Part shown: positions 2,781 through 22,625 of the stretch, piece after piece | Layout of the letters: each line of letters opens with the position of its first letter | Numbering within the stretch: position 1 is the first letter of the stretch | DNA from: Prorocentrum cordatum | Lineage: Eukaryota; Sar; Dinophyceae; Prorocentrales; Prorocentraceae | Reading direction: 5' to 3' | Assembly (NCBI GenBank): GCA_963575745.1 | Contig: CAUYUJ010003687.1 | Location: 12,501-76,500, forward strand | Length of the DNA: 64,000 nucleotides | Position numbers and translations under genes: made by a program | Notes under the pieces: generated by a model | Seen by the model: only the letters and a program-made list of their open reading frames with translations | Told to the model about the DNA's origin: nothing | Database searches by the model: none

Positions 2781-2987
2781 TCACGATGCGCTGCTACTCC
2801 CTCTTCGCCGTGTACGCTGCAGGAACGTGCGCGCGGTCCCGTAACATGGGGCCGCCCCCGTCGCTTCCGCCCTGGCCGCTATCGGGGGTTATGTTTCGCT
2901 CTGGTCGTGTGCCTGTTCGAGGGGGTGCATGCCAAAGGCTCCAACGTGAACCAGGTCCTCACCTCCAACCTTACGTCCCATGGAGCT

Positions 2988-5900
2988 ATGGTTGGAGTCT
3001 TGAGTGCGCCCTGCAGCTACAAGTCTACTCTCTGCCTGCAGGAGCATCACGGCGACGAGCAGCGCCTCCCTGAGCTCCAGAACACAGCGCGCCAGCACGG
3101 GTTTCATGGTGTATGGACTGTGGCCGCACCCACGGGCCGAGGCGGCACTTGCGGCGGATGCGCTATACTTGTACCGAAACATTTGCGGCTTGGAATGGGG
3201 CCTCTGCTGACCTCATCGACTCTCGCGCCAGGCCGAATCACGGTAGGACATGCCAGCTGGGGACCACGGGGAGGCACAGTGGTGGTCTCCATCTACTTGG
3301 TCGACTCGGTGGGGCTCAATCAAGAGAATATGGATCTGCTTACCACGCTGGCTCAATACCTGGAGGCGCTCAATGGTTTGGGACAGCCATGGATTGTGGC
3401 AGGCGACTGGAACATGGACCCAGCGAGCACACTGGACTGGATGCACTCGGTACACGGAGTTCAGCAGGCCCCAGCCCAACCCACATGCAATGCCACGCAA
3501 CCTGGCACTACCAGGGATTATTTCTGCGTCTCTGCTGCCCTGGTCGATTGGATTCGCGGATGCGAAGTCGGAGTGGCAGCGACTTTCCCGCATCAGCCTG
3601 TGCAGTTGGGGTTTCAGTACTGCGCACATGAGCAGTGGGCACGCGTCCCTGTTACACCACGTCCACTCCCGACGGTGCCGAAAGTGGGCTGTGCCAGGTT
3701 CCCACCCACACGGCAATGGGCACGGGTGCAGCAGCTCATTGATCAAGCTTCAGACGGTGTGACTTTGGCTGCGGCGTGGGATGGGGTTATTACCACTATG
3801 GAACACGAGATCCTCAACCGCAATGACATAATGGACATGACGCAGCGGGGACTTCATCACGGCCGAGCTGGTCCCGACCAATGGGTATGGAAGCGGGTAC
3901 AGGCCCTCGTACCACCGAGGCCCAAGCGGTTGAGCGCCTACCAGCAGTATGGCAAATGGTGTCAGCATCTGCGCTCCACGCACACACGCATGCTTACGGC
4001 CCTCCAGCGCATAATGGAGGAGGCAGATGCGAACCGTTTCCCTGCAAGGCTTTTGCCAGACATTTACGGCCAGCACGGGCAGTACGTCAACGGCCTAGGT
4101 AGCCCAGTCCAGGGTCAGTTCAAGGAGCAGCGGTCGTTGGCACAACTCAGTCGGGATCTTCAGGGTTTCTTCGCGCGAGTAGTACGTACTGGCTGGGTTG
4201 GGCCGCTGCTTGATTACGAAGATCGACTCCAGCTCCACAGTTACCACGACACGTTTTATGAGCCTGACTTCCTAGACAGGATCGACCGAGCGCTTGACAA
4301 GGTGAGTCGCGTGACGGAGGCCATACGCAAGTATGCTGGCATTGAATGGGCGCAGTGGGCCAAGCAAGCGTTTCAGAATGGGGCTGGCAAAGCGCACAGA
4401 TACACTAGAGTGCGTGAACTACAAGAGACGTTGCAGCATGCCGAGAAGGACCGTGGCCAACCGCACCACATGGCTGATGAATGCTTGGAGTTTTGGAAGG
4501 GTGTCTGGACCATTCATGAGGATCGAGCTGTCGCCACGCCGGCAGTTCAAGCAGATTGGGAGGAGCTACCCGAGATCACAATCGACGACATTCGTAACAC
4601 CCTCAGACGATTCAAAGCCACCACGGCGCTTGGGCAGGTATCGATTCAACCGCGCGCATTGACCCAAGTATCGGACATGGGATTGGGCGTCCTTGCATCT
4701 CTCTATCAGCAATGCGAGAAGTTGGCGTGTTGGCCGACGCAGAGGGTCACCACGGTGCTAGTGAGGCTTCCCAAGCCCACGGGGGGCCACCGCCTCATTG
4801 CGCTCATCAATACTGTGGTCCGCATTTGGAGCCGATTACGACGACGGATCTCTAAGCAGTGGGAGCTCGCCAACCCTTCTACCGCCTTTTGGGGCACGAG
4901 GCCTGGTGCGACTTCTACCGATGCTGCGTTTCAACACAACATAGCTGCGGAAACGGCGAAGCTCAATGGCATGCATACGGTCAGTGCACTGATTGACATG
5001 TACAAGTGTTTCGAGACGATACGATTTACTGCGCTGCTTGACAGGGCTAGTAAGATGCAATTTCCGATGAGATTACTTTGGATGCTGATTCACACATATC
5101 AGGCACCACGGCAGGTGCGAGCTTACGGGTCATTGTCCACCAAATTCACCTCCGCGCAGGGCATATTGGCGGGATGCTCTCACGCCTGCGCCATGGTCCA
5201 CCTGCTCCTCTGCCAGTCCTTGGAGGCCCTACGCAGTAAGTATGCGGATGTGGTGCCACGGGCTTTGATGGATGACGTCAGCTTTCAATGGATTGGGGCA
5301 GAACCTTCTCAGGCGGTCGTCCTATTTCATGCTGTTCGATGGTTTATTCGCCAGGTGCAGCCACTGGGTCTCATCATTCAGGTGGACAAAAGTGGTTGTG
5401 TGGGTGGCACTACTGCGGCGACGCGAGTGGCGAAGAAGCTTGGTGGACTTATTCGGTTTCGCTGCCACAAGCACATGCGCAATCTAGGACACGAGCTTGC
5501 GGGGGTGCGACTCAGACGTACTCAAGAGAGAAAGCGTGTCATGGGCGTCCTGGCCAGGAGGGGCAAGTTGGCGGCGTTGCAACGGGGCCGAGCCCAGGTT
5601 CACACTCTGTGGCGCACGGGCCTGTTGCCTGCTGCTGCACATGGAGCGGGAGCTAGCGGCGTCGTCCCTGCCACGCTGGCAAAGCTCCGCACGCTGGCAG
5701 GCTCTTTGGTGGGAGCCAAATCACACGCCAGTCTTACGGCTTGGCTTGCCACTCAGAGCGATGAATGGTTTGACCCGATATTCGATGTCACGACCGAGCT
5801 AATCTGCAGATACGCGATCACAGTTTGGGATGGATTGGTACCACTCAGTCAGTTACAGCGGGCGTGGGCTGCCATGATGGAATCTTGGAATGGTGAATTC

Positions 5901-7966
5901 ACGTGGGCCAGATGTAATGGGCCTCTCTCGGCGGTTTCGCTCAGCCTGCACAGGGTGGACTGGAAGATGGCGTCGGCACATATGCTATACGACGATCAGG
6001 GCACCCTCGTTAACCTTCTTACAACTACGCCTTGGGATGTGAAGCTGTTGCTGCGACAGAGCATTGGACGATGGCAGATGCTTCGCATTGTCAGCCACAT
6101 GCAACCCATAGTTGGGAATCCTCATGGAGTCTGGAGGCGAGCACTTCGCAACTCAGTTCTCAGCTTGAAGAATCCGATCCATAGAGGCTGCGCCCGCAGA
6201 TTGCTCGGCTCCGCATTGTGGCCCCCAGCGAGAAAGAAGGCTCTTGGGATCTCTGACAGTCACCAGTGCGAGATTTGTGAGAGTTCGGAGGCTGGCACGT
6301 TGGGGCACCAGTTGTACAACTGTGAGGGGGTCCTTCACCCACCTGAGGAGCTGCCTGTTGAATCCCTTTCAGAGGAGGTCTTGGAGCGCAGGGCGTATCT
6401 GCGGGGTCTTGGGGACAATGGGCTAGGCGACCCAGAGTGGGATTCTCTGGAGCTGTACGGGCTGCCTTACCATCCCATTAAGCTTTCGCCCCAACCCACG
6501 CAGAGCCCTGTGTTCCACTGGGGGGCTACGCATCTTCCCTGGGGTCGGCGGATCTACACTGACGGCTCGGGGCTCGCGAACGCGAGCCCTGAACTGCGCA
6601 GGTGTGGATGGGCCGCGGTGGAGCTGTCGGACTCTGGGCTGCCCGTGAGGGCGGTGTTTGGGCCGCTCCCTGGGCGCCAATCGGTGCCCCGTGCGGAGCG
6701 GTACGCGGGCTTGATGGCTTTCTCGGTAGCCCCCCAGGCGACCACAATATATAGTGATCATTTAGCCTTTGTGCAGGAAGGCCAGAGCTGGAGCCCCCAG
6801 CTTGCCTGTGGGTTGTCCCGACACGCGGATGTGTGGCGCCGTATCTTCCAGCTCTTCGAACAACATAGGCCACCGCCCGAGTTTGAATGCCCCCGCCCGA
6901 GTTTGAATGGGTCCCTGCCCACAGAGACATCGACGATGTCATGGCTCTGGAGCAAGGACAGATCACCCGCTACTTGGGTAACTCTTGGGCCGATTTTTTT
7001 GCGCGCCTTGGAGCCCAGGATCATCAGTACGCGCAGGTTTGTCTGGACGCGGAGAAGGCCCATTTGAAGGCCAGCAAAGCCACCCGGGGATTCTTGGCGC
7101 GCGCGGTCCATATCATTGGGGAGTACTCCAAGGCGTTTGAGCCCCCAATGACCCCCGTTGGTCAGCCCGTGGAGCGAATCAGTTTGACACTCGTGGAGCA
7201 CGAGATTTATCGCCTGCCGACTCGTGCTGAATGGCGCTGCAGGAAGTGTAATATGTCGGCCAGGAGCGAAGCCACACTGCGAGTGATGTGCAGTGGGGCT
7301 GCTAGGCGGTGCCAGGGCAGTGATCTGGAGCGCTGCCGCGCTGACATCATTTTCTCTGCCGAACCCCAGGCTCGTCTCCACACTGCGAGCAGCCCCGCGG
7401 TGTCAGATCCTGTTCCTCCCTCGCTGGGCCAGGACCCCTCCTCTCCTTCCGTGCCCGACGCCGCGGTGGGGGCTGGGTTGAACGCCATCGCTGCTCTGGG
7501 CCACAGGCCCGTCCGCCACGGTAGGGTGATCATCTGTCAGAGGTGCGCTGGATACTGGATCCTCCCCGACGGCAAATGCCGCAAGCTTGGTCGAGTGTGC
7601 GAAGGGGAGGCCAAGGTAGCCAGCACGATTCAGAATCACCGCATGTACTGGCGACACGCAGAGGTAGGTTGCCACCCCAAAACGGGCGAGGTTTTGGGTC
7701 CGTGGGATGGTGCCCTTGTTTCTGGTTCGGAGCCTGGTGCCGTTTGTTTCCCGTCTTCCGAGGCGTCTGGACCAAGGGCTAGCTCTGCGTGTTCGGCCAA
7801 CCAGGATAGTATGGAGCAAAGACACTGTGGTGGTCGTGTCGAGACGTCGTCCCGTCGTACACCACGTCCTTGCCCGCCTTCGGCAGCCTCGCTCGATGCC
7901 CGAGCGAATGCTGCGAGCACGGTTTTGTCTCAGGCCCCGTCGGAGCCTGCTTCGGACTCTGATTGA
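2988..7966 (+). pseudogene. LINE ORF2: endonuclease / reverse transcriptase / RNase H, frameshifted
   Basis: The frame is open from 2772, and its first ATG is at 2988. In order it encodes: an AP-type endonuclease (QEHH near 3040-3050, AGDWNMD at about 3400-3420, PHQPV at about 3585-3600, where the canonical Ser-Asp-His is not seen but a His remains); a reverse transcriptase with motif A around the Asp at 4995 and motif C Met-Asp-Asp at 5268-5276 instead of the usual FADD/YADD; and RNase H1 (YTDGSG at about 6555-6570, Glu in AERYAG at about 6697-6712, SDH at about 6753). A 20-bp tandem duplication at 6873-6909 shifts the frame. The last RNase H motifs (WVPAHRD and GNSWADF) lie in the next frame, which runs to the TGA at 7964. 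The C-terminus has two Cys-rich clusters (CRKC at about 7240, CQRC at about 7540), typical of nucleic-acid-binding tails. The frameshift removes the final RNase H Asp, so this copy is probably inactive in RNase H. Confidence 0.85.
6873..6909 (+). repeat. 20-bp tandem duplication disrupting ORF2
   Basis: A 17-bp word (CCGCCCGAGTTTGAATG) occurs at 6873-6889 and again at 6893-6909, exactly 20 bp apart. Twenty bases is not a multiple of three, and the reading frame changes from frame 0 to frame +2 here. Both flanking frames continue the RNase H fold, so the duplication is the sole cause of the break. Confidence 0.9.
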
Positions 7967-9300: not shown

Positions 9301-10190
9301 AGCCCTTGCACAAAAAAGGAAGGGGGAGGAGGAGGAGGAGGAGGGGAGGAGGAGGAGGAGATAGGAGAGGGGGAAAAGGGGGCAAGGCATCGCCCTCTGG
9401 GCCCAGCAACGGGGGCCCAAGTCCCAGGTGGGGAGGGTGGGGGAGGCGGCGTGCGTCGCGACGCGGAATAAAGTGCTCGGAGCGGAGGGGGCACGGGGCG
9501 GAGGTCCCACTGGGGCGCTGGGGGCGCGGAGAGGAGGGGTGGTGGTGTGTGCCGCGACGCGGAATAAACTGTCGGGGCGGAGGGGGCACTGGGCGGGGCT
9601 TGGGGCAGAGGGTGCTGGGGGGCGACACATAGCGACACATGTCGACGCAACGCCGAAATAAAGTGGTCGGGGCGGAGGGGGCAGCGCGCTGGGCTGCTGA
9701 GGAAAGGGGAAGGGGTGGGGGGGGGGCGACGACGACGCCGAAATAAAGTCGTCGGGGCGGAGGGGGCGGTGCGCCGGGGTGCTGGGAGGCGACACATGTC
9801 GACACAACGCCGAATAAAGTGGTCGGGGCGGAGGGGGCAGCGCGCTGGGCTGCTGAGGAGAGGGAGAGGGGGGGGGGCGACGACGCCGAAATAAAGTGGT
9901 CGGGGCGGAGGGGGCGGTGCGCTGGGGTGCTGGGGAGCGACACAGAGCGACGCATGTCGACACATTTCGGCATCTAGAGACATATATCGACACGCACATA
10001 TCGACGCATAGCGACACACAGCGACACATAGCGACGCACACATGGAGACGCATAGCGGCACACAGCGACACATATAGCGGCACCTGAAGGGCACCAGGCA
10101 CACAGCGACACATATAGCGACACATGAAGGGCACAAGGCAGCTGGGGGGAGCGACGACGACGCCGAAATAAAGTGGTCGGAGCTCTAGAC
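9300..10190. repeat. Minisatellite cluster: GGA tract, AATAAA-bearing units and GCGACACAT repeats
   Basis: After a short GGA tract (9306-9362), a unit containing AATAAAGTGGTCGGGGCGGA recurs near 9468, 9561, 9654, 9736, 9808, 9886 and 10163, spaced 72-93 bp apart except for the last. Two alternative spacers alternate between copies. From about 9925 to 10140 a 9-11-bp GCGACACAT/GCGACGCAT motif is repeated on both scales. All six frames stay open over most of the block, which is a repeat artefact. Confidence 0.85.
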
Positions 10191-10264
10191 ACCCTGTGCA
10201 AGAGAATAAAAACATAAAAGAACGATACGACCACCCTTCGGGTGATAAGGAGGTTCGGGGGGGG

Positions 10265-10378
10265 GAGGAACCAACGTCTCACTCGATCGGTCTCACTATC
10301 GATCTCACTATCGGTCTCGCTCGATCGATCTCACTCACTCTCGATCTCACTATCGATATCACAATCGATCTCACAATC
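10265..10378. repeat. TCTCACTATCGA minisatellite
   Basis: About ten imperfect copies of a 10-12-bp unit (TCTCACTATCGA, with TCTCACTCGATCGG variants). It passes into the ATC array that follows. Confidence 0.85.
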
Positions 10379-10632
10379 AACGTCATCATCATCATCAAAT
10401 CATCGTCATCAACGTCATCATCAACATCATCATCATCATCATCATCATCATCGTCATCATCATCACCTCATCACCAGTATCATCATCAACATCATCATCA
10501 TCATCATCATCATCGGGACACCATCATCGTCACCATCATCATCAACACCATCACCATCGGGACACCATCATCATGATGATTGGAACACCACCACCATCAT
10601 CATCTCATCATCATCATGAACAACATCATCAA

Positions 10633-10666
<34 letters not shown>

Positions 10667-10689
10667 GGGACACCATCATCATCAGCAAC
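10379..10689. repeat. ATC microsatellite with GGGACACC interruptions (left flank of YR element)
   Basis: ATC/CAT triplets are broken at about 10515, 10559 and 10667 by GGGACACC. The same compound pattern continues at 21071, on the other side of the tyrosine-recombinase element. The two pieces therefore appear to be one locus split by the insertion. Confidence 0.95.
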
Positions 10690-10745
10690 ATGCTTCTTCT
10701 ATTCTCTGTGAGCAAGCTCCTGCTGTCTCCGCAGCTTCTCAGCCC
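10690..10745 (+). repeat. YR element split repeat A1
   Basis: A 56-bp sequence (starts ATGCTTCTTCTATTC) identical to A2 at 20822-20877, offset 10132 bp. It forms the 5' end of the element; the base before it is array sequence. Confidence 0.95.
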
Positions 10746-10781
10746 AAGTGCCCCCCCGTCGGCCGCGCGTGCGGACGCCTT

Positions 10782-11246
10782 ATGCAGGCGCTCGCACAAG
10801 CGGCTCTCGGAGGCGCTGGGGAGATCTTCTTCAGGGGGCTGCGGGCCGCGCTCTACGAGCGGCTCGTGTCTGCCCCTTTCTCTGATCTTCAGGACCCAGG
10901 GCCTCCTGCGCCGGCCTGGTCCATCCAGCAGGCGGACTCGTCCGAGGGTGAGGGGGCTTTCTGCCCCCTCCCTTCGGCGGGTTCCGCCTGCCCCACCGTC
11001 TGCCTCGGGCTGGCGGTGGATCTGAGCGGCGGGGTTTCGCCCTGGCTGCTCAGCACGGTCGTCGCCCTCCTTGGGGTGACGGCCGCGTGCAGCGCCTGCG
11101 CAGGCTGCTGCATCGGGCTGCTGGGCCCGTACGCGTGGCGGAGGCTCAGGGCCTCCGCCTGGCCGCGCGGAGCGGTTCCTGCCCCCTTTGAGCAGGACCG
11201 CCGTGCGGCGCGAGCGCTGGCTTACGGGGTTCCGCCGCGGCCCTGA
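10782..11246 (+). CDS. Small putative membrane protein of the YR element (ORF0)
   Basis: It has an ATG start and 154 residues, lying 36 bp inside the A1 repeat and 59 bp before the gag-like ORF. Residues about 86-116 are strongly hydrophobic (SPWLLSTVVALLGVTAAC, then a Cys-rich CSACAGCC), followed by an Arg-rich tail, as in a single-pass membrane protein. The N-terminal half is amphipathic and then Pro/Ser/Gly-rich. No family match is recognised. Ngaro and DIRS elements usually have no such ORF. In a GC-rich region an open frame of this length can arise by chance; the membrane segment and its placement are the main support. Confidence 0.45.
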   Translation: MQALAQAALGGAGEIFFRGLRAALYERLVSAPFSDLQDPGPPAPAWSIQQADSSEGEGAFCPLPSAGSACPTVCLGLAVDLSGGVSPWLLSTVVALLGVTAACSACAGCCIGLLGPYAWRRLRASAWPRGAVPAPFEQDRRAARALAYGVPPRP

Positions 11247-11305
11247 GCGCTCGTGCGGGCAGACGCCCAGCATTCAGGGAGCAACTCCCTCGGCTGCGCC
11301 CATTG

Positions 11306-13246
11306 ATGGCCGAGCTGCCACCAGTTGGCGGAGGGCCTCTATGGCCCGAGCTCTACCCATTCGCAGCTCCCACGGCTCGCGGCTACGCACGTTGGCGTTT
11401 AGACGACGGCGACACCAGCTGGGCAGCTATCCCCCTCGCGTCTCGAGAAGGGGGCATCCTCCTGGCCCTGCCTGGCGCCTTTCGCTCTACGGCGGAGCTC
11501 GAGGCTGCCGAGGCGGGGGGTTTTGCGGGGATGATAGGCCCCTTCCAGCTAGTGGACGCCCAGCTCCAGGGGGCCGCTTCGCGGCCGCTCGCCACTACTG
11601 CCTCCGTCCTCGTCGTGGATATCGAGGTTGCAGAGCTCGAGCTCGAGTCGCTTTACCCTCTAGAGGTCGGCGAGGACGCGGCCATCGTCCCCTTCGCCGA
11701 GGTGCGGGGCCGCGTCTATTGGCCACACCCTTCAGGGGTTCGGGTGCTTCGCGAGGGTTACGCACGCTTGCACGGCGCCCCGCCTACCGCAGGGGAGGAG
11801 CCGCTCCCAGGGGCCGATCGGGCTACTCCCTATCACTCTGCCGACGAGATGGAAGAGCCCGAAGGGTTCGCGGCCGACGAGGACGCCGAACGCCCGGCCC
11901 CAAGTGCGCGATCTCCCGCGGACGCTGGAGCGCCTCGCGGCCCGCCCCCGAAGCGCACGGGCGCAGCCGCGCCGCCACGGGTCGCGGGCCCCGCTTCGAT
12001 CGCTCCTGGTGCCCCTGCGGCGGCTCTGGACGACGGGGCTCCTATGACCCGTGCCGAAGTAGCTGCCGAAATGCGCGCTTTGCTTGCAGCCCACGCAGCC
12101 TCCACGATGGTCGGCCGACCCGAATCGCTGGGCCCCGAGCCGCCTGCTCGGAGCGATCGGCCCGAGGTGCCTCAGCTCTTCAGCGACGAAGCGGTGCGCC
12201 TCGGGCTGGACCCTGCGGGGATCGAGGCCGTCCTGTCCCACGCGCCCGTGGCCCCGCAGCGGGTCTCCGCGCGTCCCAAGGGTCCGACCTCCGCGCTGGT
12301 CTCGGCGTGGGAAAAGGCGCGCTCTCTGGCTGTCCCTCGGGCCCCTTCGTCGGGCTTCGGAACGATGGGCCCTCCGCCGCCACCTGGGTTAGCCCATCCC
12401 GCTGCGGTCGACGGCTTTGCCGAGGCGGGCGGCGCCGACGGGTTAGAGCCGCCCCATACGGCCAATCCGACGGACTTCAGCCTCATGCTACAGTGCCTGC
12501 ACCAGTCCCTCCTTCTGCAGCAGGGGCGGGGCCATCGTCCAACCGTCCATCCGCTGCTGGGGACCCTGAGCGACTCAGCTCAATCTCCGCCCGCGAGCTC
12601 GGGCGAGCCCGCGCCCGTATCGGCTCAGATGGGGGGCATTGCTCGGAGGCGCGAGTGGCAGCAAGCGCTGATACAGCACGGCCCCGACGTGCGAGGGCTG
12701 ATGAAGGAGAATCTGGCTCGCGTCCTAGGCGTGGAAGTCAGCGCCGTGACCCCCATGGCCATGCATCAGTACTTTCGGGAGCACAGTCCGTTGGGGGCTC
12801 AGCCGACGACGCACGAGTTGCTGACGCATTTCGCCTTTCTCAGCGCCGAGCTGTGGCGGGCCTGCGAAGAGGGCAATCCCGAGAGAGTCCAGACTCTACT
12901 GACGTGTCAGTGCATGTTCATCGACCAACTGGCGGGGGACCGCGGCTATCTCGAAGCCGCCTGGTTCCTCACAGGACTGGAGCCTCCCCCGTGTCGCGTG
13001 ACGAGTCTTCACACGGAGCGCGAGGCCCAGACCCCGTTTTCACCTCTGGTGGACCCTCGTTGGCTGTCGGCGCAGGGCGAATACGTGAAGGAGCTGCAAG
13101 CATTTCGGGCGCGTCTCGACGCCGAGCGCGCCGTCGCGCTCCCCAAGCACCCTCCTCACCAGCCCAAGCAGCCCAAGGTTGCGAAGCAGCCCTTCAAGAC
13201 CCAGGGTGCTTCCAAGGCGCCGAAGGCGGTGCCCAAGAAAGACTGA
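11306..13246 (+). CDS. Gag-like ORF1 of the YR element
   Basis: Starts at the ATG at 11306 (an in-frame TTG lies just upstream) and encodes 646 residues. The first 150 residues look globular, with Trp/Pro and hydrophobic beta-like segments. A disordered Ala/Pro/Gly middle follows (about 190-260). A largely helical region at about 430-600 contains REWQQALIQHGPD and ELLTHFAFLSAELWRA. The last 25 residues are Lys/Pro/Gln-rich and basic, suitable for RNA binding. There is no CCHC knuckle. Position before the RT polyprotein and a basic tail suggest a nucleocapsid role; no sequence family is recognised. The TGA at 13244 is followed at once by a small perfect hairpin (GGCGCC-TTC-GGCGCC, 13248-13262). 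Confidence 0.75.
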   Translation: MAELPPVGGGPLWPELYPFAAPTARGYARWRLDDGDTSWAAIPLASREGGILLALPGAFRSTAELEAAEAGGFAGMIGPFQLVDAQLQGAASRPLATTASVLVVDIEVAELELESLYPLEVGEDAAIVPFAEVRGRVYWPHPSGVRVLREGYARLHGAPPTAGEEPLPGADRATPYHSADEMEEPEGFAADEDAERPAPSARSPADAGAPRGPPPKRTGAAAPPRVAGPASIAPGAPAAALDDGAPMTRAEVAAEMRALLAAHAASTMVGRPESLGPEPPARSDRPEVPQLFSDEAVRLGLDPAGIEAVLSHAPVAPQRVSARPKGPTSALVSAWEKARSLAVPRAPSSGFGTMGPPPPPGLAHPAAVDGFAEAGGADGLEPPHTANPTDFSLMLQCLHQSLLLQQGRGHRPTVHPLLGTLSDSAQSPPASSGEPAPVSAQMGGIARRREWQQALIQHGPDVRGLMKENLARVLGVEVSAVTPMAMHQYFREHSPLGAQPTTHELLTHFAFLSAELWRACEEGNPERVQTLLTCQCMFIDQLAGDRGYLEAAWFLTGLEPPPCRVTSLHTEREAQTPFSPLVDPRWLSAQGEYVKELQAFRARLDAERAVALPKHPPHQPKQPKVAKQPFKTQGASKAPKAVPKKD

Positions 13247-13371
13247 AGGCGCCTTCGGCGCCCGCCACCTGGAAGGGTGGGCCTGCGGGGGGCCGGGGTA
13301 CGCCGCCGCGCACAGACTGCACCGACGCTGTTGCGGTTGCTAGGCGCGTTTGGGCACAGCGAGGGCGTGAG

Positions 13372-13421
13372 GGTAGGAATGCGCTCTTCCAGCGATGCTG
13401 TTGCGGCCCCGCAGGGAGGAG
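13372..13421 (+). repeat. 50-bp internal direct repeat of YR element, copy 1
   Basis: Matches 18491-18540 at 49 of 50 bases (single difference at 13378/18497). This copy covers the ATG at 13395 of the polyprotein. In one of its frames it can encode RSSSDAVAAPQGG, the peptide used in frame by copy 2, but here the polyprotein uses a different frame. Confidence 0.9.
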
Positions 13422-16400
13422 TACGTTCCGCCACCACGCCCTTCGCTCTGCTCCGAACCGCTTCTCGGATCCCTCGGCCATTTTGGCCGACGCTTGCCTC
13501 AGTCGAGCGCGCCCTCCAGGGGGCCTGCAGCCCCTGAGGTTGGTGTCCCTGCTGGTGCTTGCTCTCCTTCAGGCACCTCTGCTGCTCTTGCCAAAGTCGC
13601 GCCATTCGTCGCTGACTTGTCTGCCTTGCTGCGCCTGTTCCCAGGCGCGAACATTGATATCACCCACTGGGCAGCAGCGCTGTCCCAGGTTGGGATGGGT
13701 GCTCGATGTTCTCTTGGTTCTTTCTCCCGCTCATCTATGCGTGCAATGGACAGGGACGGTCCGTACCTTTTGGGGCCGCCTCCCCGCGATCCTTGGCCGT
13801 GCCCGCCTGCTCCTCCTCTTGGTCCCCCGCCTGACGGCTTGTCGGCGAGGCGCAGGGAGCGCTGGAGACTGCGGCGCGCGGCGCGGACGCTCGCGCAGTA
13901 TTCCGTTATTGCGTTGAACTGGCTCACCTTGGGTCATCCCAGCCTCGCTCCCGCCGAGGCTCGCGTCCGTGCCACGGTCTCGCCCTGCCAGGAGGGCGTC
14001 CGCACCCGTATCGAACGGTTGTGTCGGATCGCAGTTCGCCTTGCCCGTGGCGGCAAGAGCGACCTAGGTCGGGCTTTCGCCAAGTTCGACTCCACCGAGG
14101 TCTCGCTCCATGGCCTGGCCACCCATGTTGCAGCTCTGGAGGCCTCTTTCACCTCCTCTTCTTCCGTGCCTGCCCCCATGCGGCACTGCCCGACCGGCGC
14201 TCCTCCGGTGCCTGGGTCGTTGGCGACTGCGGCGGCTTGGGACTCCACCCAGGCCGAGCCCTTCGATTTGAAAGTCAGGGCATCTCGCATCAAGTGGGAT
14301 TATTCGCCAGAGTTTGATCCCGTTCCCTTCCTCTCTGACGCGCGAGTCCGCGAAGCTTTCCTCGATCCTGAGGTTATGCGGCTACCGGCATCAGAGTGGC
14401 CTGCTGGCCAGAAGGGAGCGCGCGTCCATATGGACCGCGCCGAGCTGTGGGCCCTACTCCAGAAGTGGGATGCCTGCGGCGCCCTGTACCTGACTCCTGC
14501 TTCGGACCTCGCCTGGGATGAAGCCTGTGGAGCTTTCAGGGTACCGAAGGACAGCGATTTCGACAGGCTGATCCTGAACCCCACGGTTGTGAACAGCCGC
14601 TGTGCTTCAATTTCTTCCAGCACCCAGCGCCTTGGCCAAGGTTTCCTCCTGTGCCGTTTGGGGCTGGCACCTGGGGAATGGCTGGCAGTTTCTTGTGACG
14701 ACCTTCGGGAATTTTACTACACGTTCCGCGTCCCTCCCGCGCGTGCCAGACGTAACGCCCTGCGCGTTCGCCTGCCATCCTCTCGTTTCAAGGCATTTCG
14801 AGCCTGGCGCCCCGAGCTGGAGGGTGTGGATGTCGCGCCCTGCCTCAATGCTCTGGCGATGGGCGACAACATGGCTGTGGAGATTGCCAACTCTGCGCAT
14901 GAAGGCGTCTTGCACAGCTTCGGGGCTTTGAGGCCTCACGAGCAGGTTGTCCACCGCTCGCCCTTTCCGCGGGGCCCGTTTGTCGAGATGCTGAATATTG
15001 ATGACCACACAGGTTTTCAGAAGCTCTCGTGGCGTGGCTCCGCTCCTCGCCCCGACGACCCGTGTCGCCGTGATCGTGAGGTCTTTGCCGCGTGTGATGC
15101 GGGCTACCCGCGCGTGGGCCTGATACAGCATCCAGGTAAGCGCGCGCGCGGTGAAACGCACAAAGTGGTGGTGGGCGCCGAGGTGGAGGGGCGCATAGGC
15201 ATCGTCTGCGCTCCTCTTGTGCGGACAGTGGCCCTGTGCAGGCTGACCCTGATCCAAATCTACCTCGGGATCACCACCCGCTCCCTGCTAGCCTCTCTGG
15301 TGGGCTGCTGGGTCCAGGTCTTCCTCTATCGCCGCCCGTTACTCGCCATCTTTACGCACGTCTACAACTTCTTGTCGCGCCTGGCGACCGAGGACGGCAT
15401 CGAATACGACCTGCCCCCTTATGTTCGCGACGAGCTCTTGGCCTGCACCTTCCTAGCCTTTACGGCTATAACCGACCTTCGGGCGCAGCCTTGCCCCGAG
15501 TTGTTCGGTACGGACGCGTCTCTCGGCTGGGGGGGCGTTGTCCGCGCTCCCATCAGCCCGCAGCTCTCTGCCGAGCTGTGGCGCAGATCGGAGCACGGGG
15601 GGTGGCACACGATTCTGCACAATCGGAGCCTCCTCGCCGTGCTCAGCCGCGGCGTGCCCGTGGGCCCTGAGCTCACCCAGCTGCATCACGACCTGGGGCT
15701 CCCTTCTCTTGAGCCCCCTGTCGCGCCGCGCTGGGTCACCGAGCTATCAGAGTCGCTGCGCTTTCGGCTCGCGTACAAATGGGAGTTTCGCATGCCTCGT
15801 CACATCAATATCCTTGAGACAACCGTGTATAAGAGTCTGTGCAAATACTGTTGTGTTCGCCTCCCCGACTCTCGGATCCCCGTCCTCTTGGATTCAAAAG
15901 TAGCTTTGGGCGCGACCGCGCACGGGCGCAGCAGCTCTCCTGGTTTATCACATGTTCTCTCGACCACTTTGCCCTATGTGATAGGAGGAGGTTTATATAT
16001 GGGAGGCATGTACGTGCCCACGGACGTGCATAGGGCCGACGATCCCACGCGCAACCGCGCGGTGAGGCCCCCGTCCCGTGCCCCTCCCGCCTGGTTAGTG
16101 GAAGCAGAGAGAGGAGAATTTACTCGCTTTGATTGCATCGCGTACGCCGACTCTCGCTCGGCATTCCCTACTTGTCTCTGGGGCCGTTTTGTTGCGCAGC
16201 TTGTGGCTCGAGGCCCCGAGGGGTTGCTCAGCCACCGTTGGGCGGCCGCCCCCACCCTCCCGTTGGGTGCGGGCATGGCCGCCGACGCCGCCGGCGACGG
16301 CGCCCAGGGCGACGCCCTTGACCCCTCGGGCGCCGCCGAGAGCAACAGCGAAGCTGCTCTCGCCAGCGGAGAGCGTCGCGGGCCTCGCAACGCGCTCTTC

Positions 16401-19400
16401 GCTGACAGCGGCCGGCGTTTCACGTCCACAGCAGACGCCTCGCCCAAGGCGCCTGTATTCTCGGAGGGCGGCGCGCGCGGCCCCGACCCTGCCGCCGCCA
16501 GCGCTGGTTCGGCTCCCCCAGCCGCCAAGCGCCCGCCACCCCTGGCCCTCCGCTCCAAGGCCGCAGCGGCCCCTCCGCCTGCGATCGGGGGGGGCTCGTC
16601 GCGCGTCGGCTCGCAGGAAGCGCCAAAGGGGGCCACGGCTGCTACCCCCCGCGTCTTCCAGCGAGCGGCCAGGGTGAGCGCGTCTCGCCAGCTGCTTGGC
16701 GTCGTGGACGGGGCTTCGCGCAGCACCATCGAAGCCGCCTTCAGGCGCCAGTCCTTAGTCTACCATCCAGACAGGACCCCTGCGCACTTGGGGGCTGGCG
16801 AGCGTGCAGCCCGCGCGCTCAAGTGGAAGCAGCTCTGTGACGCCAAGTCAGTGCTGCTCCAGGCGCTCTCGCAGGCCGCCGCGCCGCCCGCTGCTCCTAG
16901 CACGGGCGGTGACGGTCCTGCCGCTCGCGCCTTCGCCCAGGCAAAAGCGGCAGGGAAGGGCGCCCGCAAGGGCAAGCTGGCTCCTGGGTCGGCCATGGCC
17001 CTTCAGGCGCTCGAGGAGGCGGTCTCTTCGCGGGTCGCCCTGGCGAGTGCCGAGCTGGCCCCTCGGGCTGCCCTCCCCGCCTCGGGTGCGCCTCTCCCGA
17101 GCAGGGTTTCGTCCGCCCTCGCGACGCGGGCGGCTGAGTCCGATGCCATCCTCGCCTCCGCCGTGTCGCGCGGCCGCGTGGAGCTCGACGCGCTCCGCAC
17201 CGCGCGGGCCGACGCCACAAGGCGCACGGTGCAGGCTCCAGCACGCGGCGAAGGCGAGCGTGCCGTCGCTCGCGCCGAGCTCGCGGAGGGGATGGCCGAC
17301 CGCGCCTACTTCCGCCGCTTGCGCGAGGCCGCCAGTCGTGAGGCCGCGGGCTTGCCACGTACGGCTCCCGTCCAGCTGGGTCGGGATTGGCGCAAAACTC
17401 TGCGCGCCGTCCTGCACAACGCTGAGGTCTCGACGGGCCTCGCCAATGCGGATCGTGCCGCTCGTGCTGGGGACGCCCCCGCGTCGTCCACGGGGCGCTC
17501 CCTGGCCGATGTGGAGGCTGAGGGCCCGCGCGCCTTGGCGAGGCCTGCCGACGACCCAGCGTCCAGCTTCAGCCGTCGCGAGGGGCGCGCTGTCCGCGCC
17601 CGTTTGGGCCCGCGGGAGGAGGCTGTCGAGGACCAGCCCAATCGCGGTGGTCACGCACCACACTCCGCCTCGCGCACGGGCGCCGCGCGCAACAAGCGCG
17701 CCAAGAAGCAGCGGCGGGCTTCGACGGCGGCGCTTCCCGCCCCTGAAGAGGGAGCCGCCACGACGCCTGGCCGCAGGTCGCGTCGCACAGCTAATGCGCG
17801 CCACTGGGCAGGTGCCGCACGCCCCAGCTCCGCCGCGGGAGTGGGCCCTCCACCGCGGAGCCGCAGCCCTGCCCGCAGCCGTACGCGGTCGCCGAACCCG
17901 TACGGGACTGATCACACTTCGCCCTCGGGAGGCGGCTCCTCGCTTCCCATCGACGTCTCGAGCGCGCCTGAGGAGCCGTCGGGGCCGCCGGCGGGAGAGG
18001 CATCGGAGGGCCCGCACACTCCTGAGGGGTCCCCTCCAGCGAGCGCCCGCAGCCGTTCGAGAGCGGAGCCCGCGTGCGAGGAGGACTCTCCGACGGAGCT
18101 CGAGGACGTCGTTTTGAGTGCTCTCACTGACTCCTCGGTGGACCTCGAGCGCGTCGTGGCGGGCCTGAACCCCGAGGTCCTCCGCCGCTTGCAGGCGGCC
18201 TTCCCGCGCCGCGCGGAGACCTCTCCGCCCGCCGCTCGCGCTGCGGCTCGCAGCCGCTCTCGGGGCCGCGGCCCGCGTGCTGGCCCCGAGCCGCCGCGGC
18301 CCGTTCCCCCGCCGCCGTCGCCACCCCGTCACCACTCTAGGGGGCGTGCGGCGTCGCGCTCACGTGCGCCGCTTGGGCGTCGCGCGGTGCGCTCTCCTCG
18401 AGTCGCTCCGAAGCGTCGCCCGAGCCCCGCCACCTCGCAGCGGCCAGCCGGCTCCCGCGCGGACTCCGCTGCTCAGGCTACTCCGACTTCGGTAGGCATG
18501 CGCTCTTCCAGCGATGCTGTTGCGGCCCCGCAGGGAGGAGGGCGTGCCGCCGAGGAAGGGGGGTCTTCGAGCGGCTTCGTGCGTGGCCGAGCTTCTGAAC
18601 CCGAGCTGCCCCTCAGCGGCGCTCACAGCGGTGACGCTGAAAGCGCCGCGGCTGCAGCCTTCGCAGCGCGGCGCACGGCCTCGGCGGCCGCTGAGCAGCC
18701 CCTGCCTCCAGGGGCCGCGAGCGCCCTAGCGTGGCGCCTCAACATCGGCGGCGAGAAGATCACGGTAGTGAGGTGGGGCCCCGCCTGGCAAGCTGCCTTC
18801 CAGAGTGCGGCGTCGTGGCTGAGGACTTTCGCACCCGCAGGGGCCGCCGAGCCCGAAGGCAAGGATGACCTGCACTGCCTCCTGCGGGCCCTGCACGCCT
18901 ACAAGCGCCTGTTTCAGACAGGCGGCGCCGAGCCGATCGACGAGGCCTCGTGGCTGCATCCTTACGCGGCCGTCGTCGAGCCCGAGGCTATTCCCGCACA
19001 TGCTGACCTCCAGGCCATGGGAGCGGGCGCCATCCGTGGCATCGGGCTCGGCTCAAAGATCGAGCAGCGGCGGCGCGCGGGCAAACTGGCCTGCCTTTTC
19101 GACTTTCTGTACCACGTGCAGGACAGTCACGGCGCCATCCCAGCAGCGCTGTGGGGATCCCATTCCCCTCCGTCCGAGATCCTCGACGCCTTCGCGGAGG
19201 TGGTGCCCGTGCCTCATCATTCGGGCCTCACGTCCTCGGCAGCTCGTTCCGAGCTGGCCGAAGCAGCCGCAGCGGCGCGTGCCGAGCCGCGCCCGCCTTT
19301 TGACTGGCCGACCCTCGAGAAAGGGGACGCTCTGCCAGCCGAGATCGAAGCAGGGGCTCGCCGCGCCTACCGTAACATGGGCGGGTCCTTCAGCTCGGCG

Positions 19401-20654
19401 CGGGCGATGCTGGCTGAGGCGTCGGGGTTCGAGACCGACGGGCGGGACGCCCTCGTTCCGCCCTTCTACGCGTCCAGGCGCAGGAGGGCCGCCACACTCA
19501 TCAGCTCTCCGAGCCCTGGCCGCCCTGCGCTCATCCCGTGGTGCGTCTGCGGCCTCTGCATCTCTCTGGGAGCCGCGGCGCCGACCGCCGGCCAAGGGCT
19601 TAGTGGAGCTGCGCCGCCCGCGCCCGCTCGCCCTCCGCGCACTCCTTTCGTGCGCGATTCTCACCTCACCTCCGCGTATCTCGACCGTCGTTCGAGATCG
19701 ATTGATGCCTTCGAGCTGTGGTTAGCAGAACACACTGGCGTGCCACCCGCCACGCTTTACCGAAGCGGGATACTTCTCGCCCGTTTCCTAGCGACCTTCG
19801 GCGTGTGGCTTCATGATGCAGGTTTTCCCCATTATATTTTGGTCCACGCCATCTTGGGAATCCAGAGCGCCCATCCGCATTGGAAGGCCTTTCTGACAGA
19901 AGCTTGGGACGTAGCGAAACAATGGAAGCTTGCGGAGCCGCCAAAGCTCCGTCCCCCCTTGCCACGCGCGCTGCTGCGCGCCATGGTCGGGCTCTGTCTC
20001 GCCTGGGACTGGCCTGTGATGGCGGCACTGCTGCTCATGGGCTTCACGATGTTCCTCAGGCCTGGCGAACTGCTGGCGTCCCGCCGCTGTGACCTGTCGC
20101 TTCCGTGCGACCGTCTCGAAGTCGAAGGAGATGCTTTTCTTTCGATTCTTGTTCCAAAGACCAGAAGAACGTACCCGACGCAACATGCTCGCTGCTCCGA
20201 TCGGGGCACGGTGAAGATATTGAATCTTGTGTTTGGGAGGCTGGCTTCCACCGATCCTCTCGCCCCCTTCGGTGCGAGCGGCTTCCGTACTCGGTGGAAT
20301 CATCTGCTTTTGGCTCTGGGCGTCCCCCTTGCCAAAGCAGGTCAGGGGCTCAACCTGACGCCCGCTTGTCTGCGGGGCTCTGGCGCAACAGACTTTTATA
20401 TCGCCACGGAAGACGTCCCTCGCGTCTTCTGGCGAGGGCGCTGGCGTCAGGCTTCCAGTGCCGAACGCTACCTGCAAGCCGCCGCCGCCTCTACAGTTCT
20501 TGCTGCGCTCCCCGAGCACGCGCGGGCTCGTATCTTGTTCTTCGCCACCGCCAGCGACCGCCTCGTCGCTTCGTTCCTCCAAGTCGGCCCCGCCGCTTGG
20601 CCTGCCCTGCTTGCGGCCGCCCGCCAAAACCTTGTCACTTCGCAAGGTCCTTGA
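13395..20654 (+). CDS. YR element polyprotein: RT - RNase H - J-domain - RS linkers - tyrosine recombinase
   Basis: A single open frame of 2419 residues. About 296-620: DIRS-type RT, with fingers VPKDSDFDRLILNP, motif A Cys-Asp-Asp at 435-436, motif B Gly490 in MGDNMAVEIAN and motif C Ile-Asp-Asp-His at 535-538. About 690-890: RNase H with TDASLGWGG (Asp707), a HINILET Glu, VLLDSK, and a final Asp in VHRADDPTR. About 1096-1163: a J-domain with HPD at 1124-1126. About 1480-1500 and 1610-1680: Arg-Ser-rich stretches. About 1775-2000: an unidentified folded region (SALAWRLNIGGEK onward). About 2080-2419: tyrosine recombinase with Arg2222 (LRPGEL), Lys2255, Arg2327 (CLRGSGAT, the usual His of HxxR missing), Trp2350 and nucleophile Tyr2359. 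The first ATG is at 13395; a later Met near residue 98 is also possible. Known relatives encode RT, RNase H and YR with other accessory domains (methyltransferase in DIRS, hydrolase in Ngaro). Confidence 0.9.
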   Translation: MLLRPRREEYVPPPRPSLCSEPLLGSLGHFGRRLPQSSAPSRGPAAPEVGVPAGACSPSGTSAALAKVAPFVADLSALLRLFPGANIDITHWAAALSQVGMGARCSLGSFSRSSMRAMDRDGPYLLGPPPRDPWPCPPAPPLGPPPDGLSARRRERWRLRRAARTLAQYSVIALNWLTLGHPSLAPAEARVRATVSPCQEGVRTRIERLCRIAVRLARGGKSDLGRAFAKFDSTEVSLHGLATHVAALEASFTSSSSVPAPMRHCPTGAPPVPGSLATAAAWDSTQAEPFDLKVRASRIKWDYSPEFDPVPFLSDARVREAFLDPEVMRLPASEWPAGQKGARVHMDRAELWALLQKWDACGALYLTPASDLAWDEACGAFRVPKDSDFDRLILNPTVVNSRCASISSSTQRLGQGFLLCRLGLAPGEWLAVSCDDLREFYYTFRVPPARARRNALRVRLPSSRFKAFRAWRPELEGVDVAPCLNALAMGDNMAVEIANSAHEGVLHSFGALRPHEQVVHRSPFPRGPFVEMLNIDDHTGFQKLSWRGSAPRPDDPCRRDREVFAACDAGYPRVGLIQHPGKRARGETHKVVVGAEVEGRIGIVCAPLVRTVALCRLTLIQIYLGITTRSLLASLVGCWVQVFLYRRPLLAIFTHVYNFLSRLATEDGIEYDLPPYVRDELLACTFLAFTAITDLRAQPCPELFGTDASLGWGGVVRAPISPQLSAELWRRSEHGGWHTILHNRSLLAVLSRGVPVGPELTQLHHDLGLPSLEPPVAPRWVTELSESLRFRLAYKWEFRMPRHINILETTVYKSLCKYCCVRLPDSRIPVLLDSKVALGATAHGRSSSPGLSHVLSTTLPYVIGGGLYMGGMYVPTDVHRADDPTRNRAVRPPSRAPPAWLVEAERGEFTRFDCIAYADSRSAFPTCLWGRFVAQLVARGPEGLLSHRWAAAPTLPLGAGMAADAAGDGAQGDALDPSGAAESNSEAALASGERRGPRNALFADSGRRFTSTADASPKAPVFSEGGARGPDPAAASAGSAPPAAKRPPPLALRSKAAAAPPPAIGGGSSRVGSQEAPKGATAATPRVFQRAARVSASRQLLGVVDGASRSTIEAAFRRQSLVYHPDRTPAHLGAGERAARALKWKQLCDAKSVLLQALSQAAAPPAAPSTGGDGPAARAFAQAKAAGKGARKGKLAPGSAMALQALEEAVSSRVALASAELAPRAALPASGAPLPSRVSSALATRAAESDAILASAVSRGRVELDALRTARADATRRTVQAPARGEGERAVARAELAEGMADRAYFRRLREAASREAAGLPRTAPVQLGRDWRKTLRAVLHNAEVSTGLANADRAARAGDAPASSTGRSLADVEAEGPRALARPADDPASSFSRREGRAVRARLGPREEAVEDQPNRGGHAPHSASRTGAARNKRAKKQRRASTAALPAPEEGAATTPGRRSRRTANARHWAGAARPSSAAGVGPPPRSRSPARSRTRSPNPYGTDHTSPSGGGSSLPIDVSSAPEEPSGPPAGEASEGPHTPEGSPPASARSRSRAEPACEEDSPTELEDVVLSALTDSSVDLERVVAGLNPEVLRRLQAAFPRRAETSPPAARAAARSRSRGRGPRAGPEPPRPVPPPPSPPRHHSRGRAASRSRAPLGRRAVRSPRVAPKRRPSPATSQRPAGSRADSAAQATPTSVGMRSSSDAVAAPQGGGRAAEEGGSSSGFVRGRASEPELPLSGAHSGDAESAAAAAFAARRTASAAAEQPLPPGAASALAWRLNIGGEKITVVRWGPAWQAAFQSAASWLRTFAPAGAAEPEGKDDLHCLLRALHAYKRLFQTGGAEPIDEASWLHPYAAVVEPEAIPAHADLQAMGAGAIRGIGLGSKIEQRRRAGKLACLFDFLYHVQDSHGAIPAALWGSHSPPSEILDAFAEVVPVPHHSGLTSSAARSELAEAAAAARAEPRPPFDWPTLEKGDALPAEIEAGARRAYRNMGGSFSSARAMLAEASGFETDGRDALVPPFYASRRRRAATLISSPSPGRPALIPWCVCGLCISLGAAAPTAGQGLSGAAPPAPARPPRTPFVRDSHLTSAYLDRRSRSIDAFELWLAEHTGVPPATLYRSGILLARFLATFGVWLHDAGFPHYILVHAILGIQSAHPHWKAFLTEAWDVAKQWKLAEPPKLRPPLPRALLRAMVGLCLAWDWPVMAALLLMGFTMFLRPGELLASRRCDLSLPCDRLEVEGDAFLSILVPKTRRTYPTQHARCSDRGTVKILNLVFGRLASTDPLAPFGASGFRTRWNHLLLALGVPLAKAGQGLNLTPACLRGSGATDFYIATEDVPRVFWRGRWRQASSAERYLQAAAASTVLAALPEHARARILFFATASDRLVASFLQVGPAAWPALLAAARQNLVTSQGP
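16680..16883 (+). other. J-domain coding segment within the YR polyprotein
   Basis: Residues about 1096-1163 of the polyprotein. It reads LLGV, then a helix with AFRRQSL, then YHPDR (His-Pro-Asp at 16764-16772), then a loop with Gly-Ala-Gly and a third helix WKQLCDAKSVL. This is the helix II - HPD - helix III pattern of DnaJ/Hsp40 J-domains. It is bounded on both sides by Ala/Pro-rich linkers, as an inserted module would be. J-domains stimulate the ATPase of Hsp70. Confidence 0.88.
18491..18540 (+). repeat. 50-bp internal direct repeat of YR element, copy 2
   Basis: Second copy of the 13372-13421 repeat, lying inside the polyprotein between the RS-rich linker and the unidentified domain. Here it is translated as GMRSSSDAVAAPQGG. 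Confidence 0.9.
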
Positions 20655-20665
20655 GCACGGGTATG

Positions 20666-20823
20666 GCTGCCTCGCCGACATCGGCGACCAGACGGACTCC
20701 ACCGTCTGACGCGCGGCGCCCCGGCTTGAGCGCGCGGGACGGGCCTGCCCATTTTGGGCCGCCCCGCGCGCGCACGCCGCGGCCGCGCTCGGAGACAGCT
20801 CGCTAGCGCGCGAGCGGGAGAAT
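20666..20823 (+). repeat. YR element split repeat B1
   Basis: A 158-bp repeat beginning 12 bp after the polyprotein stop and identical to B2 (20913-21070) except at 20805/21052. Its last two bases overlap the first two of A2, defining the probable AT crossover core. Confidence 0.95.
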
Positions 20824-20877
20824 GCTTCTTCTATTCTCTGTGAGCAAGCTCCTGCTGTCTCCGCAGCTTCTCAGCCC
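20822..20877 (+). repeat. YR element split repeat A2
   Basis: Exact copy of A1, directly adjoining B1. It is followed by a 35-bp spacer (20878-20912), partly CTC-rich, before B2. Confidence 0.95.
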
Positions 20878-20912
20878 CCCTCCCTCCTCCTCCCACTCTA
20901 AGGCTGACGGGC

Positions 20913-21070
20913 GCTGCCTCGCCGACATCGGCGACCAGACGGACTCCACCGTCTGACGCGCGGCGCCCCGGCTTGAGCGCGCGGGACGGGCCTGCCCATT
21001 TTGGGCCGCCCCGCGCGCGCACGCCGCGGCCGCGCTCGGAGACAGCTCGCTGGCGCGCGAGCGGGAGAAT
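20913..21070 (+). repeat. YR element split repeat B2 (3' end)
   Basis: 158-bp repeat that ends GGGAGAAT immediately before the ATC array. It forms the 3' boundary of the element. Confidence 0.95.
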
Positions 21071-21636
21071 CATCATCATCAACATCATCATCATCATCAT
21101 CATCGGGACGCCATCATCATCGTCACCATCATCACCATCATCATCATCATCATCGGGACACCATCATCATCATCATCATCATCATCAACATCAGCATCAT
21201 CATCATCACCATCTTCGGGCCACCATCATCAAAACCAGCATCACCATTACCTCATAATCATCCTCATCATCAACATCATCATCATCGGGACACCATCATC
21301 GTGATCATCATCATCATCCACATCATCATCATCGGGGCACCATCATCATCACCACCATCATCAACAGCATCATCAACATCAGCATCATCATCATCGTCAT
21401 CATCATCGGGACACCATCATCATCAGCAACACCATCATCATCACCATTATCATCTCATCATCATCATCAATAACATCATCAGGATCATCATCATCATCAT
21501 CATCATCATCGGGACACTATCATCATCAGCAACATCATCATCAACATCATCGTCATCGGGACACCATCATCATCACCACCATCACCATCATCACCATCAT
21601 CATCAGCATCAGTATCATCATCAACATCGTCAACAA

Positions 21637-21667
<31 letters not shown>

Positions 21668-21776
21668 GTCATCATCATCATCATCATCATCATCATCGGG
21701 ACACCATCCTCATCACCATCATCATCATCATCAACATCACCATCATCATCATCATCATCATCATCAACAACATCAA

Positions 21777-21817
<41 letters not shown>

Positions 21818-21828
21818 ACATCAACATG
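21071..21828. repeat. ATC microsatellite with GGGACACC interruptions (right flank)
   Basis: About 750 bp of ATC/CAT triplets with GGGACACC-type interruptions near 21105, 21154, 21285, 21333, 21405, 21511, 21557 and 21696. It is continuous in character with 10379-10689. Confidence 0.95.
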
Positions 21829-22083
21829 CGAGGCCGCGGCGTCCGGCGAGCGGGGCGAGGGCGCTGCTTCGGGCGCGAGGGGTAGGGGTGGGGCCTAAAC
21901 CCGTGGTGCCTCCTGGGCGGGCAGCGGCCCTTTAGGCTTGCCTAAGGGGTGCCGTTGTCCCCGTGCGGCTCTTGGTTGCCCTGGTGCTCCCAGTTGTCGT
22001 GCGGGTCCAGGTTTCATCGCGGGCTTGGGTGCCTTCCCCCTGCCCAGAGCGGGGGCTGTGCGACGCACGCCGTCCGCCGAGGG
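21829..22083. other. GC-rich spacer
   Basis: Non-repetitive GC-rich sequence between two ATC arrays; no gene seen. Confidence 0.6.
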
Positions 22084-22086
22084 GGG

Positions 22087-22137
<51 letters not shown>

Positions 22138-22345
22138 GTCATCATCATCGGGACACCGACGGGACACCGACGGGACACCGGCCGGACACCGGCGGGACAC
22201 CGCGGGCCACCAGCCCCCGGAAAGGAATCATTTGGTCCAGCCGCGCCTCAGCTGGAGGCGGGGCACTGGCGGGACACCGCGGGCCACAGGCCCCCGGAAA
22301 GGAGTCATTTGGTCCGGCCGCGCCTCAGCCGGAGGAGACTTTCTT
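22084..22345. repeat. ATC tract, GGGACACCG minisatellite and a ~75-bp duplication
   Basis: An ATC array (22084-22150) passes into five copies of GGGACACCG-type units. Then comes a direct duplication of a segment containing CCCCCGGAAAGGA and TCATTTGGTCC, at about 22192-22260 and 22271-22340. This shows GGGACACC acting as a minisatellite seed next to ATC, as in the array split by the YR element. Confidence 0.85.
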
Positions 22346-22625
22346 CTCGCCCGCCCACGCAGCTTCGCCTCGCCCGCACGCACGGCACGCACGAACACGA
22401 AACCGAAACCGATTTCCCGGTAGTGGGGCTCTCCGTTCCACTTCGATCTCACCCCCTCACCTCCGATGCCATTGTTCGTCCCCCTAGAGTGGTGATGCGA
22501 AAAGCAAAAGACGATCGGGTGGGGCGAAGGCCAGTTCACCCGCGGGGGCGCGATGCGCGAGGTTAGGCGCCCTAGGGGACGTTTGACTTCTACCTGGAGG
22601 CTCCCAGCCTGCTCCCAGCCATCTC
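22346..22625. other. Unassigned spacer
   Basis: Low-copy-looking sequence without recognisable coding content. Confidence 0.5.

Follow-up and report, generated by a model that had tools for sequence, protein, structure and literature searches.

What does a J-domain of the Hsp40 (DnaJ) type do inside the polyprotein of a retrotransposon, and how did it get there? The question is raised by a locus of the dinoflagellate Prorocentrum cordatum (assembly GCA_963575745.1, contig CAUYUJ010003687.1, positions 12,501 to 76,500; this whole analysed stretch of 64,000 nucleotides is called the window below), where the initial annotation, made from the sequence alone, had placed such a domain at 16680..16883. 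We know of no co-chaperone domain inside a retrotransposon polyprotein; methyltransferases are reported as accessory domains of tyrosine-recombinase retrotransposons, and the Ngaro elements among them carry a hydrolase. Among the matches listed in the open-licence PubMed Central literature, there was no report of a J-domain-bearing retrotransposon. The word "DnaJ" is absent from the main text of PMC6338049, PMC5890265, PMC3783388, and PMC8547959, and "chaperone" from that of PMC5890265, the available text of which reports a methyltransferase as an accessory domain of such elements.

The domain lies in a single retrotransposon of ~10.4 kb, which spans window positions 10690–21070 (Table 1) and is surrounded by ATC/ACC microsatellite. 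The repeats at its ends are split direct repeats in the order A1-[ORFs]-B1A2B2, the internal repeats being situated downstream of the tyrosine recombinase (YR), as in Ngaro elements; the B1-A2-B2 arrangement was found also in copy L051, the right flank of which is other sequence. A search of window 9500–22500 for inverted repeats (≥30 nt, seed 14), expected of a DIRS1-like element, gave no pairs. Reverse transcriptase (RT), RNase H, and YR were recognised through alignment to P0002, a Symbiodinium protein of 2234 aa, the Pfam scan of the window pol having reported DnaJ alone and no RT, RNase H, or YR. The Ngaro-type set of RT, RNase H, and YR without a methyltransferase is present, judging from the similarity to P0002 and from an RNase H free of an insert. 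The DNMT domain that marks the pol of SymbioDIRS-Dnmt3 was not found: RNase H is unsplit in the window element, and its pol gave no Pfam match to DNMT or any other methyltransferase, Pfam being equally silent on relatives with a methyltransferase-like look by eye. Since A-ORFs-B-A-B repeats are combined here with the lack of a methyltransferase-like insert, the element appears to be better named Ngaro/SymbioDIRS-like than DIRS; the initial assignment thus stands as to a tyrosine-recombinase retrotransposon and is amended as to the class.

The C-terminal end of the gag-like ORF1 (dN/dS 0.154) is alike, with small changes only, in four other copies. The frame of pol ORF2 extends further 5′ in other copies than in the window, which may be partly mechanical, since the extended frame overlaps gag in another frame. 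A 61-nt direct repeat (93% identical) occurs, in differing reading frames, at the gag–pol junction (window 13372–13432) and within pol (18491–18551), and it is present in 4/4 other near-full copies. Elsewhere in the window (2772–7061, forward strand), a frame of 1430 codons matching RVT_1 (E 2.9e-8) and Exo_endo_phos (E 3e-4, under the cutoff) represents a LINE-type element.

Table 1. Features of the J-domain-bearing retrotransposon, in window coordinates
Feature	Position	Strand	Remarks
A1 terminal repeat	10690..10760	+	First 56 nt common to A2
Gag-like ORF1	11306..13246	+	Frame open from 11192; ATG 11306 a likely start
Pol ORF2	13377..20654	+	One open frame, 2425 codons
Reverse transcriptase	14274..15476	+	43% identity to P0002; motif C IDDH by eye
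RNase H	15477..16139	+	Second block 49% to P0002; without the ~300-residue insert of outside relatives
Ala/Pro-rich, fast-evolving linker before J	16140..16676	+	dN/dS 0.377 and 0.41
J-domain	16677..16874	+	Pfam DnaJ 16692–16856; HPD 16764–16772
Linker after J	16875..18746	+	Part (pol 1214–1414) absent in copy L051
Second constrained segment, pol 1791–1990	18747..19346	+	dN/dS 0.146; without Pfam match
Tyrosine recombinase	19614..20582	+	34% identity to P0002 C-terminus; R..R..W..Y by eye
B1 repeat	20666..20823	+	From direct-repeat comparison
A2 repeat	20822..20892	+	From direct-repeat comparison
B2 repeat	20913..21070	+	99% to B1; marks the right-hand end, before ATC microsatellite

Judging from profile and sequence matches, the segment of pol residues ~1101–1166, between RNase H and YR, is a J-domain. 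On a 268-aa piece of pol, the Pfam DnaJ profile (PF00226) matched with E 8.6e-7 and 29.4 bits, above the curated cutoff (27.8 bits); with the complete ORF of 2425 aa, the score was 25.6 bits (E 1.4e-5), i.e., under this cutoff. The match covers pol 1106–1160 and stops at profile position 53 of 63. The best sequence match among solved structures was the J-domain of the Williams-Beuren syndrome region 18 protein (2yua, E 4.9e-5), which we take to be DNAJC30, followed by DNAJB1 (E 6.2e-5). The annotated domain was therefore borne out by the very Pfam comparison proposed for it; its placement between RNase H and YR in one open frame agrees with the similarity to P0002, and the Ala/Pro linkers described around it were recovered as linker surroundings.

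Copies of the domain were sought in the organism's own genome (4.13 Gb searched) with an 88-aa J query, which yielded 848 candidates. The 150 that were scored are the best-matching ones, so they are biased towards intact, well-kept copies. All 150 were free of stops and matched the J query over its entire length at ≥94% identity, and 21 of them, the window included, were 100% identical to it; with J present in 150/150 scored copies, a private insertion in one copy is ruled out. Selection was estimated on 20 of these copies, spread across the identity classes and aligned together with the window (n = 21). The J core gave a dN/dS of 0.110 (bootstrap 0.05–0.20), or 0.109 (bootstrap 0.04–0.22) without copies L043 and L044. 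It is clearly more constrained than the linker before it (0.413, or 0.410 without the same two copies; lowest 66-codon block 0.325). For the linker after J, the value over all 21 copies (0.411) is inflated by L043 and L044, misaligned past a deletion, and without them it falls to 0.216 (bootstrap 0.08–0.48; lowest 66-codon block 0.089). As J does not clearly exceed this second linker in constraint, some of the constraint on J may not be specific to it. The HPD triplet, located between helices II and III, was intact in 21/21 copies of the window family, frequent synonymous change notwithstanding; the Tyr directly before it was replaced by His in one copy.

Domain-wise estimates, obtained from three near-full copies and the window (L052, nearly identical to the window, stays outside these pairs), were 0.027 for RT, 0.036 for YR, 0.055 for RNase H, 0.069 for the N-terminal part of pol, and 0.085 for J. 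The linkers gave 0.377 (pol 922–1095), 0.145 (1170–1410), and 0.355 (1411–1790). The value was 0.146 in pol 1791–1990, possibly another accessory domain, and 0.184 in the segment 1991–2079. In copy L051, 201 linker residues (pol 1214–1414) are gone and J is retained. Overall, selection maintains the J sequence in the window family, a chance open frame being ruled out by the dN/dS values, and HPD, proposed in the initial annotation for a test of purifying selection, proved to be conserved in this family.

A different picture emerged from other families of the same genome. With 138 aa of the P0002 RNase H as the query, 3754 own-genome candidates were obtained, of which 150, falling into several open-frame size classes, were scored, and seven representatives were read downstream of RNase H. 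One of these (L059) belongs to the window family, and six lie outside it. All seven harbor a J-like segment at the equivalent place, six in frame and L053 in a shifted frame. In the six representatives scanned, DnaJ was the sole Pfam family up to E 10, every match being under the curated cutoff (E 3.6e-6 in L059, 1.2e-4 in L058, and 7.4e-4 in L055); the weak matches of L056 (0.011), L054 (0.021), and L057 (0.044) are backed by position and mutual similarity. The triplet is HPD in L059, L055, and L058, HPG in L056, RPD in L057, and HPA in L054 and L053. These variants are not confined to single copies: RPD was found in 8/8 stretches of the L057 class, and the 12 stretches of the L054 class, 10 of them readable, showed seven HPA, three HPT, and no HPD. 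A pattern of the L056/L058 type, to which other triplets are invisible, gave 91 matches, i.e., 43 HPD and 48 HPG; the triplet of the L055 class comes from one copy read. Outside the HPA/HPT count, the J-like segment of L070 is more divergent, its triplet being RPG and its last helix having CNAK instead of CDAK, and no J-like segment was found in L069. All six aligned element J sequences retain the last helix, W..[LF]CDA[KR]. Loss of HPD from other copies, named at the outset as grounds for refutation, was thus seen in several sister families and in none of the 21 window-family copies read. The role initially suggested for J, a putative recruitment of Hsp70 for the folding of RT or integrase, is weakened as a general explanation, since entire sister families have retained the J-like segment without HPD.

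The J segments of these families are only 31–52% identical to each other (86% between L056 and L058), their RNase H 83–96% (99% between L056 and L058). The contrast is sharpest between L058 and L054 (RNase H 96%, J merely 31%) and reflects either fast divergence or an exchange of J segments between families. As J is far more divergent between families than RNase H, its partner or role does not seem to be strongly fixed across them. All eight own-genome entries of the RNase H tree group into one clade (support 100/99), and the nearest outside entries are P0005 and P0006 (92/88, an unstarred branch); if HPD is ancestral, it has been lost at least three times on this tree.

The PF00226 matches also include a dispersed family of this genome (L010–L020, L023–L025), in which the J-domain precedes what by eye looks like a WW segment; most copies carry the canonical HPDK. 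Possibly a further mobile or amplified gene, this family was set aside as a relative of the element, having no match to the element gag, RT, or YR. At L026:3735–8000, NUDIX and DnaJ domains were observed together in one 1422-aa open frame.

Beyond this genome, three relatives of pol length, all of them Symbiodinium proteins, were found, and a protein-database search with the RT-to-J segment returned 57 relatives. The database seems to lack the own proteins of this genome, because no near-identical protein was returned. None of the 57, 30 of which hold both RNase H and YR, gave a DnaJ match at E ≤ 1, with the reservation that HMMER filters drop most matches above ~0.1 and a J-like segment as weak as that of L057 might escape. 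The scores of an unfiltered profile built from six element J sequences did not exceed 5.9 bits in 60 relatives, vs. 16.8–27.7 bits in 6/6 cellular J controls from the own genome. The J region alone found nothing in the protein database at E ≤ 0.001 (candidates of ~385–1225 aa), nor did one scan of viral contigs give a match. With 0/57 by Pfam, J as a feature of the outside group is ruled out, its absence referring to the sampled relatives, and the combination of J, RT, and YR is as unusual as initially suggested.

The relatives differ from the window element in what they carry around RNase H. The gap between the second RNase H block and YR measures 27–100 residues in 29/30 relatives and ~1150 in the window. 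It amounts to 452 residues in P0060, where it looks methyltransferase-like by eye (residues ~840–1290); this region of P0060 occupies the place that J has in the window element. In 33/33 relatives holding both RNase H blocks, RNase H is split by an insert of 266–341 residues, vs. ~23 in the window. The inserts inspected were labelled "methyltransferase-like" by eye on the basis of known motifs; Pfam named none of them.

The best explanation as a whole, to which we would give about an even chance, is a single capture of J, acting as an Hsp70 co-chaperone in cis where HPD is present and as a docking module where it has been lost. The J-homologous segment occupies the same position throughout a single clade of the families read and is absent from the sampled relatives; its capture probably took place once. 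A cellular J-domain would have been inserted, most simply in one event, between RNase H and YR of a Ngaro/SymbioDIRS-like pol, and J would have been exchanged for the methyltransferase-like insert of the outside relatives; we infer both the swap and the single capture from the comparison of these sequences. In families with HPD, J in cis would tether host Hsp70 to the large pol or its RNA/cDNA complex, and the tethered Hsp70 could help in the assembly, release, or import of either; such co-chaperone action is plausible where HPD remains. In the HPD-less sister families, the segment may have been kept as an Hsp70-independent, J-like docking module, a role suggested by its likeness to kinetoplastid Pam18. 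The full scenario, in which a methyltransferase was swapped for a co-chaperone J, which some families use on Hsp70 in cis and which has several times turned into an HPD-less J-like module, is tentative, its chances being somewhat short of even.

One rival, which we consider rather unlikely, is that the J-like segment is Hsp70-independent in all families, providing a helical docking surface for pol or the integration complex, and that HPD persists in some of them by descent only. Such a role would accommodate the absence of HPD from all copies read of several families, the preservation of the last helix in 6/6 sequences, and the high divergence of J between families, and J-like proteins of this kind have a precedent in the available literature (see below). 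Persistence by mere descent is hard to reconcile with HPD in 21/21 window-family copies amid frequent synonymous change and with the 43 HPD matches elsewhere, and in L070 the last helix itself is altered. The high divergence of J between families and the substitution of HPD in several of them could also mean that J is an unneeded passenger, captured with host sequence and decaying at unequal rates; the dN/dS of 0.216 in the linker after J (without L043 and L044), not clearly above that of J, points the same way. We regard this as improbable: the dN/dS of J is 0.085–0.11 (upper bootstrap ~0.2) vs. 0.41 in the linker before it, L051 keeps J despite losing 201 neighbouring linker residues, and J is open in 150/150 scored copies, albeit in a best-matching set biased to intact ones. 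Similarly improbable is a role of the J-like segment against a host restriction based on Hsp70 or linked to stress, with its divergence driven by conflict, as the identity of J and RNase H between most families (31–52% vs. 83–96%) might suggest: the window family (dN/dS 0.11) shows no signs of positive selection, an equal contrast would arise from recombination between families, and no host factor is known.

If a captured J indeed acts on Hsp70 where HPD remains and serves for docking where it is lost, the sister families of one genome represent a natural experiment on Hsp70-dependent vs. Hsp70-independent J function. The element makes it testable whether retroelements recruit Hsp70 in cis. 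The role of a J-domain after HPD loss becomes testable as well, as this triplet varies between close relatives among the families of one genome (HPD 43, HPG 48 matches).

Among the known systems, SymbioDIRS-Dnmt3 of Symbiodinium (de Mendoza et al. 2018), as described in the available text of PMC5890265, combines the repeat order A-coding-B-A-B with a pol-internal accessory domain. The window element resembles it as a dinoflagellate RT/RNase H/YR element with the same repeat order and an accessory domain within pol, but this domain is a DNA methyltransferase in SymbioDIRS-Dnmt3 and a J-domain, with no methyltransferase-like insert, in the window element; in addition, YR is encoded in a separate ORF in the former and within the pol ORF in the latter. 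Ngaro elements are characterized in the available text of PMC4157794 and PMC8547959 by the A1-[ORFs]-B1A2B2 order, internal repeats downstream of YR, and the lack of a methyltransferase. In its structure, the window element shares the split direct repeats downstream of YR and the lack of a methyltransferase, but it possesses a J-domain and is larger (~10.4 kb vs. 6–7 kb for the Cafeteria elements in PMC8547959).

With the J-domain proteins (DnaJ/Hsp40), the element J shares the sequence pattern of helix II, HPD, and helix III. Unlike them, it resides within a retrotransposon polyprotein, has its last helix at a greater distance from HPD, matches the Pfam profile up to position 53 of 63, and has sister families without HPD. 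According to the available text of PMC11349236, interaction with Hsp70 requires HPD, and the J-like domain of Trypanosoma brucei Pam18 is degenerate, with HSD in its place, the authors arguing for its Hsp70 independence; Pam18 and Pam16 of this organism, in spite of the altered HPD, are still essential and have been repurposed for mitochondrial DNA replication. The J segments of the sister families would be comparable to Pam18/Pam16 as J-domain descendants with an altered HPD, the latter being cellular proteins of the mitochondrial membrane and the former proteins of a mobile element.
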